Source: Longimicrobiales bacterium (lineage in GTDB: Bacteria; Gemmatimonadota; Gemmatimonadetes; Longimicrobiales; Gaopeijiaceae). Taken from it: a stretch of DNA of 34,346 bases. Position 1 is the stretch's first letter; every line of letters starts with the position of its first letter. The DNA is taken from assembly GCA_028822645.1 (NCBI GenBank), contig JAPKDG010000020.1, positions 1 through 34,346 on the forward strand, in the 5' to 3' direction. The translations under genes and the position numbers were made by a program. The notes under the pieces are model-generated. The model ran no database searches and was not told the origin of the DNA. It saw nothing but the letters and a program-made list of their open reading frames with translations. Of the stretch, positions 1,641-6,407 are shown piece after piece.

Positions 1641-1658
1641 TTGTGAAGTATTTCACAA
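1641..1658. promoter_or_regulatory. Rex operator, 18-bp palindrome upstream of rex
   Basis: The sequence is TTGTGAA-GTAT-TTCACAA, perfect 7-bp arms with a 4-bp centre. This equals the published consensus for the redox repressor Rex (TTGTGAA-N4-TTCACAA). It lies between the rsmA stop and the rex ATG, 31 bp before the latter. The left arm could overlap a promoter -35 element (TTGTGA), although no convincing -10 follows. Autoregulation of rex is the natural inference. Confidence 0.88.
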
Positions 1659-2448: not shown

Positions 2449-3660
2449 ATGCAAGATAAAACCAGAGAACCAGTAATTATAAAAGGCTGCCGAACACCCA
2501 TAGGTAAATTCTTAGGAGGACTTTCTTCCCTGTCCGCCTCTGATTTGGGAGCTCTCGTAGTCAAAGATCTTTTGGAAAAGACCGGAGTCGACCCAAAGGA
2601 CGTTGATGAGGTAATCATGGGTAATGTTATAGGAACAGGGGTTGGACAAGCTCCAGCTCGTCAAGCGTCCATCAAGGGTGGGATTCCTGAAAGTGTACCG
2701 GCTTTGACTATCAATAAAGTCTGCGGATCAGGCCTGAAGGCGGTTATGTTAGCCGCACAGGCAATCAGAGCAGGTGATGCGAGCGTAGTTTTAGCAGGTG
2801 GTATGGAGTCGATGTCGAATGCTCCATTTTATCTCCGCGGGATGAGAGCTGGAGTGAAGTTTGGAAACCAGAAAATGGAGGACGCTTTAGTTTCAGATGG
2901 CCTGTGGTGTGCATTCGGCCATTGTCACATGGGAACACATGCGGAATATACTGCAAGAAAAGGAGATATTAGTAGGCAGGAAGCTGATGAATTTTCTCTC
3001 AGATCCCACAAGCTAGCGACTCTGGCAATGAGTCAGGGAAAATTCGAAGATGAAATTATTCCAGTAGTTTGTCAAAAGGATCGTCAGGAAATTGTCGTTG
3101 GTGCTGATGAGGGGCCTCGAAAAGATACTTCTATCAGCACCTTAGAGAAGTTGAGGCCTGCCTTTCCAGATGCAGCAAGCGAATCTCTGGGAGGATTGAC
3201 CGTTACTGCTGGCAATGCGGCAGGTTTAAATGATGGAGCGGCTGGCCTTCTCGTGACTTCTAGAGAATTTGCTGAGGTGCATGGATTGGATATAGAGGCC
3301 AAGATTACGGAATATGTTGCGAGTGGCTTGGATCCCCGGGACCTATTCTTTGCTCCTGTGAAAGCTGTAACCGAAATGATGTATAAAGAAAAAAAGAAAA
3401 TTTCTGATTATGGACTTGTCGAGCTCAATGAAGCATTCGCAGTCCAGGCCTTGGCCGATATTAGAGGTTTGAAATTAAATTTGGATATAGTGAACGTATA
3501 CGGAGGCGCAATAGCCCTGGGTCATCCGATAGGTGCTTCGGGAGCTCGTATCTTGGTAACCCTATTGAGTGCTATGAAGGATAAAGATGTGGGAACCGGC
3601 CTGGCGACTCTTTGCCTGGGGGGCGGCAACGCTGTGGCTCTTTCTCTCGAAAAAATCTAA
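2449..3660 (+). CDS. Acetyl-CoA C-acetyltransferase (thiolase II type)
   Basis: Condenses two acetyl-CoA to acetoacetyl-CoA, or cleaves acetoacetyl-CoA, in the cytoplasm. The 403 residues span the full thiolase fold. The nucleophilic cysteine is Cys92 in [11 protein letters not shown]. The C-terminal half has [14 protein letters not shown] with the catalytic His, and CLGGGNAVA with the second catalytic Cys. The ATG at 2449 follows GAGGAG (2440-2445). The 3-hydroxyacyl-CoA dehydrogenase begins 22 bp after the stop, so the two enzymes act in sequence: acetoacetyl-CoA to 3-hydroxybutyryl-CoA. A longer-chain 3-ketoacyl-CoA thiolase cannot be excluded. No crotonase, acyl-CoA dehydrogenase or PHB synthase gene is in the window, so direction and end product stay open. 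Confidence 0.93.
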
Positions 3661-3682: not shown

Positions 3683-4537
3683 ATGGCAATAAAGGTTGCG
3701 GTGATTGGAGCAGGGGCCATGGGGGGTGGGATTACTCAGACTTGTGCCCAAAATCATATAAGGGTTTCGATCTCAGACGTGTCTAGGGAAGCTGTGATCG
3801 GGACAATGGATAAAATCTCGAGAAATTTGGACCGTCAGGTTCACAAGAAAATTATAGATGCTGATGCAAGAGCTCGAATTCTCTCTTATATCAATCCAGC
3901 GGATACTCTTGAACAGGCAATCCATGGCTCGGATATAATTATAGAGGCTATTCCTGAAAAAAGTGAATTTAAATTGGAGTTGTTTGGAAGGTTAGGCTCT
4001 ATGACTGATCCCGGTGTTGTTTTAGCCAGTAACACTTCTTCTATATCTATCACTGCGTTGGGAGCTGAATCTGGAGATCCTGGAAGAGTTGTTGGCATGC
4101 ACTTCATGAATCCAGTGCCCGTGATGAGGCTGGTTGAGGTTGTCCGTGGCCTGGAGACCAGTGATGACACTGTGCAAAATGTTATGGAATTTTCTACGGA
4201 ACTAGGAAAAACTCCAATTTTAGTGAATGATTCTCCTGGTTTCGTATCAAATCGCGTGTTAGCACCAATGATTAATGAGGCAGCTTTTGTACTTATGGAA
4301 GGAGTGGCTGATCTTCAAGCTATTGATCAAGTGATGACTTTGGGTATGAATCATCCTATAGGTCCCTTGGCCTTAGCAGACCTTATAGGTATAGATGTAC
4401 TATTGAGTATTTTGGAAGTTTTGCATAAAGAACTAGGTGAAGATCGTTATAGGCCGTGTCCTTTACTTCGAAAGTATGTCGCTGCTGGCTGGCTTGGCAG
4501 AAAAACAGGCAAGGGTTTCTATGAATATCCAGAATAA
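3683..4537 (+). CDS. hbd: 3-hydroxybutyryl-CoA (3-hydroxyacyl-CoA) dehydrogenase
   Basis: NAD(P)-dependent interconversion of acetoacetyl-CoA and 3-hydroxybutyryl-CoA. At 284 residues it matches stand-alone HBD/PaaH rather than a multifunctional FadB. The Rossmann motif GAGAMGGG is at residues 9-16. Catalytic His140 is in [13 protein letters not shown] is at 117-120, and [10 protein letters not shown] opens the C-terminal dimerisation domain, which ends in [14 protein letters not shown] chose the ATG at 3683, with AGGA at 3673-3676 just upstream, because the frame can be extended to 3587 only by overlapping the end of the thiolase. It forms a two-gene unit with the thiolase. Confidence 0.94.
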
Positions 4538-4652: not shown

Positions 4653-4677
4653 AGCCTTTGGTGTAATTCCAAAGGTT
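4653..4677. other. Hairpin in the glyA leader
   Basis: CCTTTGG (4655-4661) and CCAAAGG (4669-4675) form a perfect 7-bp stem around a 7-nt loop. An A-T and a G-T pair extend it to 9 bp. It is followed by TTCTAATTTTGCTTATTT, only a broken T tract, so a weak terminator or attenuator is possible. It lies 38 bp before the glyA ATG. I tested this leader by eye against the ZTP (pfl) riboswitch often found before glyA and did not find its conserved 3' core. Confidence 0.4.
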
Positions 4678-5974: not shown

Positions 5975-6020
5975 TAATTGGAGAATGCAATCTAGCGTAA
6001 GATAGAAATTGGAGACAGAT

Positions 6021-6407
6021 TTGCACATGGCAAAACTTCAATTTACAGATGAGATCATGGATCACTTAAAGGAGTGCTACCCGCAATTCCACGGGGAAGC
6101 TTATGTATTTCTATTGTATGCATTTGAGGGGTTCCTAGAAGAGCTTGGGGAAAATCGCCACTTGAAAGGTAGTGAATTGGCCCATGGGGTTCGCCAGTTG
6201 GCTCTGAAAAAATTTGGACCCATGGCCAAGACCGTATTAGAACACTGGGGAATAAACAAGACTGAGGATCTAGGGGACATTGTATATGCCCTTATTGACT
6301 GTGGTATCTTGGTTCAAGAATCTGGAGATTGTAAGGAAGATTTTTGCGATGTGTTTGATTTTGAAGAAGTATTTGAAAGGAATTATCCGTGGAATCCGGG
6401 GTTCTAG
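6021..6407 (+). CDS. Minf_1886 family protein of unknown function
   Basis: About 128 residues, recognised as the Minf_1886 family (TIGR04138, described as Verrucomicrobia/Planctomycetes-restricted). The diagnostic core is present: AYVFLLYAFEGF near the start, then GSELAHGVRQLALKKFGPMA, TVLEHWGI, EDLGDIVYALID, and a C-terminal DFEEVF. No catalytic motif, signal peptide or membrane segment is visible, so it is probably cytosolic. Its function is unknown. The start is uncertain: GGAG at 6011-6014 fits the TTG at 6021 best, the ATG at 6027 is possible, and a TTG at 6009 would precede the ribosome binding site. It lies 46 bp after glyA and 41 bp before a zinc-ribbon gene, probably in one transcript. 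Confidence 0.88.
   Translation: MHMAKLQFTDEIMDHLKECYPQFHGEAYVFLLYAFEGFLEELGENRHLKGSELAHGVRQLALKKFGPMAKTVLEHWGINKTEDLGDIVYALIDCGILVQESGDCKEDFCDVFDFEEVFERNYPWNPGF

Follow-up and report, generated by a model that had tools for sequence, protein, structure and literature searches.

The window analysed here, a stretch of 34,346 nucleotides from a Longimicrobiales bacterium (contig JAPKDG010000020.1), contains the word TTGTGAAGTATTTCACAA at positions 1641–1658, to which no strand is assigned. This word is a perfect 7-4-7 palindrome of 18 bp with zero mismatches to the Rex consensus TTGTGAA-N4-TTCACAA, and it ends 31 nt ahead of the ATG (1690) of rex, a plus-strand gene (1690–2322) that encodes a redox-sensing transcriptional repressor of 210 aa. 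The match and its position directly before rex are as given in a preliminary description of this DNA. Two further genes follow on the same strand. The first encodes a thiolase (acetyl-CoA C-acyltransferase; 2449–3660; TIGR01930, 437 bits, cut-off 240.55), and the second, next to it, an hbd-like 3-hydroxyacyl-CoA dehydrogenase (3683–4537; PF02737 and PF00725). The region scan places a terminator-like hairpin after hbd (4653–4677, plus strand), which is weak because there are four such matches in the region against a shuffle mean of 2.7; judged from the sequence, it is a possible end of the transcription unit. In the genus of the window, the thiolase gene is possibly co-transcribed with rex, as the gene order suggests. 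Farther along, positions 6009–6407 encode a Minf_1886-family protein (TIGR04138, 119.1 bits, cut-off 60), a family to which no function is assigned; in several genera the gene sits between glyA and an NAD(P)H-hydrate repair gene.

The 210-residue protein is recognized by the Rex model NF003993 with 235.6 bits, above its cut-off of 217, and it covers in full the models of both the DNA-binding domain (PF06971) and the Rossmann-type nucleotide-binding domain (PF02629), which confirms its earlier identification as Rex. Close rex genes in named records are those of the Gemmatimonadetes MAGs SP311 and UWMA-0339 (81–82% identity). The closest solved chains, 3ikt and 1xcb, both belong to Thermus Rex and align over the full length. 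The QVRKD sequence of the recognition helix, part of a QVRKDLS stretch shared with Thermus Rex, is kept in nearly all of the 76 other family sequences. Arg16 is also kept, and the nucleotide-binding motif GLGRVG is present.

The window was scanned for the consensus at up to three mismatches, and a single further match was found, with three mismatches; shuffled windows average 2.45 matches at this threshold. From this mean and the number of 14-letter variants, a perfect match is expected by our own arithmetic about 1e-4 times per window. The source genome (G000) is a Gemmatimonadota MAG of 2.04 Mb in 99 contigs, 93.55% complete. It contains no other perfect site, no site with one mismatch and ten with two. 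A reversed-pattern control, which is a palindrome of equal composition, gives nine matches at up to two mismatches in the same assembly.

A putative promoter, TTGCAG-N17-TAGTAT, is predicted at 1613–1641 on the plus strand from the sequence and from a conserved geometry. Its -10 element and the operator share one base, the last of the former and the first of the latter, so the expected transcription start falls inside the operator. The site is thus an exact and conserved operator pattern that adjoins a predicted -10. The -35 element lies in the end of rsmA, the gene found ahead of rex in 72 of the 78 close loci described below, and its match is weak, which is why a consensus promoter scan omits 1613–1641. 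Of 69 family sites, 36 have a -10 that stops no more than 2 nt from where the operator begins and 11 show no such promoter, counts that follow a loose rule and lack a shuffled control. We infer that this arrangement would fit repression by blocking RNA polymerase.

Conservation was surveyed in 96 genomes of the family, 83 of which have a Rex match. Eighty-five Rex-like loci were read, leaving out eight weak partial matches (E above 1e-7) and the second fragment of the rex gene that is split in G047. The 85 divide into 78 close loci and seven distant paralogues, the latter at about 27–31% identity. Upstream of the close loci, the site is perfect in 56, has one mismatch in 13, two in three and three in two, while the remaining four have at least four mismatches or an unreadable upstream sequence. 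Hence 69/78 carry the operator with at most one mismatch, and 9/78 have at least two or cannot be read. For comparison, stretches of similar length inside genes mostly show five to seven mismatches; the distant paralogue loci have four to five. In other families of the class, all 22 rex loci examined have at most one mismatch. The four central bases of the operator vary, and most of the other 14 are constant. Of the 78 family genomes that have a close Rex, 57 contain a perfect site somewhere; of the other 18, which comprise 13 with no Rex match and five with a distant Rex only, none does. The reversed-pattern control yields no perfect site in any of the 96. The Fisher value for this association (4.6e-9) is only descriptive because the counts are uncorrected for shared ancestry. 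The proposal that a Rex operator precedes rex is therefore upheld by its retention across family and class and by its absence where Rex is absent.

The preliminary description had also taken the site as an anchor for finding the regulon and had suggested a genome search at up to two mismatches. In the genome of the window, this search stays at background, with ten further sites, six of them inside long coding frames, against nine for the control, and the search was rejected as evidence by itself. The genus of the window is represented by three genomes (G000, G014 and G047, together g1). In these, the exact core GTGAA-N4-TTCAC occurs four, two and four times, against one, one and four control matches, and only the sites at rex and nuoA are common to all three. 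Another core site, on contig C14 of G000 and shared with G047, was set aside as lying inside a long coding frame. G000 and G047 also have in common two sites with two mismatches, one where a PLP-dependent enzyme gene begins and one where an NHL-repeat protein gene begins; as both overlap the gene start and no counterpart was found in G014, they were not counted.

The nuoA site reads AAGTGAACTATTTCACAA (contig C47 of G000, 34763–34780), has two mismatches, and is the same in G000, G014 and G047. It ends 17 nt ahead of nuoA (PF00507), which is followed by PF01058 and PF00329 genes and heads a same-strand run of genes that reads like a nuo operon. The region was examined in 87 of the 88 family genomes with a nuoA match, leaving out a partial match in G002 as well as a second, 41% nuoA-like copy in G077. 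Among the 71 genomes with a close Rex, 65, from 31 of 32 genera, have a site with at most two mismatches no more than 150 nt from nuoA, whereas permuted palindromes reach at most 1/71. The six close-Rex genomes in which it is missing at this threshold are G060, G053, G043, G064, G009 and G044. The anchor claim thus proved right, though not through the two-mismatch search of the single genome: it is the comparison across relatives that yields nuoA and a weaker atp site. As far as the sequences tell, the regulon is small, and it emerges only when relatives are compared.

Genomes lacking Rex provide a contrast. In genus g12, none of the seven genomes examined has a Rex match and the nuoA site is lost in all of them (six to seven mismatches); six of these are at least 93% complete. 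The nuo site is also missing in the Rex-less genomes G008, G058 and G038 (76% complete). Genus g12 is the main independent control, and it may represent a single loss. The site is kept in two of twelve Rex-less genomes. Both are incomplete MAGs (73% and 78% complete) whose genera have Rex in their other members, so its absence may reflect only a gap in these assemblies. In four genomes with a distant Rex only (loci L215, L219, L223 and L233), the nuoA position shows four to five mismatches and is occupied by a related word, AAGTGACCGATTTCACAC or near forms of it, which may be an operator that has changed in step with a different Rex.

A third site was found at the ATP synthase genes. Two genera share a two-mismatch site that, in G006, lies ahead of the ATP-synthase operon (PF09527 and PF00119 genes). 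A match to atpB is present in 92 genomes, from which 50 upstream stretches were read, 49 of them long enough. At up to three mismatches the site is found in 31 of 39 genomes with a close Rex, versus at most six for permuted palindromes, and in one of nine genomes without Rex, the incomplete G059. The commonest form, TTGCGCTTTTTTTCACAA, has one clean half-site, and its left part reads as a -35 element with a -10 element 17 nt on. Part of the conservation may for this reason be that of a promoter, and the permuted-palindrome control cannot tell whether a Rex half-site or a -35 is being conserved. In the genome of the window the corresponding sequence, TTGATCTTTTTTTCACAA, has four mismatches and is little more than a half-site. 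Besides rex, putative operators thus precede nuo, in this genome and in the family, and atp, in 31 of the 39 close-Rex genomes read. The atp operon would be a Rex target across the family, and is an uncertain one in the window's own genome.

We regard it as highly probable that 1641–1658 is the autoregulatory operator of rex, that the same Rex acts on nuo, and that the weaker atp site is a third member of the regulon in the family. That the palindrome arose by chance and has no function would be favoured only by the binding being a prediction, and with a perfect match expected so rarely in a window, the site kept ahead of the same gene throughout family and class, and perfect sites missing from every genome without a close Rex, it is hardly credible; at the sequence level, this reading is already contradicted by conservation. 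A different question is whether the site mainly controls a rex-thiolase-hydroxyacyl-CoA dehydrogenase operon, as a switch of carbon storage or beta-oxidation rather than of respiration, a model known from Clostridia. Within the genus, the same-strand position of thl and hbd downstream of rex and the hairpin 3' of hbd speak for it. Against it, thiolase adjoins rex only in the three g1 genomes and in G031; in most of the family other genes separate it from the start of rex, 1.5–2.9 kb away, or it does not appear in the stretch read, and the operator is kept whatever gene follows rex. A promoter-like match ahead of thl, which would separate it from rex, is within chance expectation and is not seen in two relatives. 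We consider such an operon an improbable main target, and thl-hbd as the real target finds no support beyond the genus and G031.

A further alternative accepts autoregulation by Rex and concerns its response to NADH. The redox-switch residues described for Thermus aquaticus Rex (PMC6125430) are Arg16, Tyr98 and Asp188, and the window protein differs from Thermus Rex at two of the three, with His102 in place of Tyr98 and Asn194 in place of Asp188. It is thus conceivable that this Rex binds and represses with an altered NADH response, acting on rex and Complex I as a brake that is constant or tuned in another way. In support of this, Tyr98 is kept in 73 of the 76 other family sequences; histidine occupies the position only in the window, in SP311 (G014), these being the two intact sequences of the genus, and in G088 of the family. 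The asparagine at the Asp188 position points the same way. Against an altered response, Asp188 is replaced in 71 of the 76 family sequences (56 Asn and 13 Ser, 69 in all) and by His in the PDB chain 3wg9, and was for this reason not taken as defining Rex. We take these comparisons to indicate that Asp188 is not needed in this family, and that it is His102 that marks the genus. Moreover, the Rex of Thermotoga maritima lacks the Arg and its shape nevertheless changes with NADH (PMC6125430), and the GLGRVG motif is present here. An altered response is in our judgement quite unlikely. NADH sensing by the window Rex is likely, on the strength of its family membership and not of intact switch residues.

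Under the preferred reading, autoregulation by an NADH-responsive Rex, a Rex dimer on the 18-bp palindrome would cover the end of the -10 element and the expected transcription start. When NAD+ prevails, Rex would hold RNA polymerase off the rex promoter; on build-up of NADH it would release the operator, and rex would be expressed. Complex I is the main NADH-oxidizing enzyme, and the same Rex on the slightly imperfect operator 17 nt before nuoA would tune it to the supply of NADH. A third member of the regulon in the family would be the weaker site that overlaps the atp promoter, of which about one half-site is left in the genome of the window. What the genomes show is the site itself, where it stands, how it is conserved and that it occurs together with Rex; binding, repression and the NADH response are inferred from this.

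Perfect operators are more numerous in some relatives. Nearly all family genomes outside the genus g25 have none or one, and seven g25 genomes have 5, 5, 6, 9, 11, 12 and 17, with none in the control. In G025 (L128–L143 and L108), operators lie near genes for LutB lactate utilization, OMP decarboxylase, GH3, M20 peptidase and cytochrome b561, among others. The ThyX thymidylate synthase gene beside one of its operators (L136, 2142–3725) has an intein-splicing domain (PF14890). In four g25 genomes (L137, L146, L046 and L047), an operator falls within the reading frame of a gene with FAD-binding and NADH:flavin-oxidoreductase domains, the domains being those read from L137; it uses the ACA threonine codon, which is rare (one to five per frame), together with a minority TTT codon, and its four central bases vary. 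The rare codons and variable centre suggest selection on the DNA word itself. Outside these cases, G018 has a second perfect operator (L067, 1501–1518), followed at a distance of about 370 nt or more by the gene for a NiFe-hydrogenase small subunit. Genus g25 is a candidate for an enlarged and unusual Rex regulon. We offer only as a speculation, with the odds against it, that an ancestral circuit of rex, nuo and atp split, such that in the small-genome genus of the window a Rex with the His/Asn switch would act on little beyond rex and Complex I, and in g25 the perfect operators would have multiplied to 5–17 per genome, some of them retained within coding sequence through rare codons, so that Rex would act on targets not known elsewhere.

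This type of control is already known, and what is new is its occurrence in the little-studied Gemmatimonadota. According to PMC5355995, the Rex of Streptomyces avermitilis directly binds and represses rex-hemAC1DB, nuoA1-N1, atpIBEFHAGDC and cydA1B1CD via TTGTGAANNNNTTCACAA, and NADH lowers its binding. The same 18-bp operator is found here, and rex, nuo and atp are the predicted targets. The systems differ in that rex belongs to rex-hemAC1DB there, whereas here it stands after rsmA and before thl-hbd; in that the nuoA1 site overlaps the -35 there, while the nuoA site here comes after the likely -10 and shortly before the start codon; and in that cydA1B1CD is a target there, while there is no cyd among the sites found by the present searches, which were not aimed at it. 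The Rex of Staphylococcus aureus recognizes the same TTGTGAA-N4-TTCACAA word, and NAD+ strengthens its binding and NADH weakens it; its targets are genes of fermentation and nitrate respiration (PMC2883068), whereas the predicted target here is Complex I.

In the literature searched, no paper was found that joins the Rex regulon or a redox-sensing transcriptional repressor with Gemmatimon-; Rex, NADH and Gemmatimonadetes do co-occur in papers. The predicted operators extend the respiratory Rex circuit of Streptomyces, with rex, Complex I and ATP synthase as its members, to the Gemmatimonadota. The Rex-less genus that is also without the nuo operator provides a natural experiment. This extension to Gemmatimonadota suggests that the circuit is old or has been repeatedly favoured.
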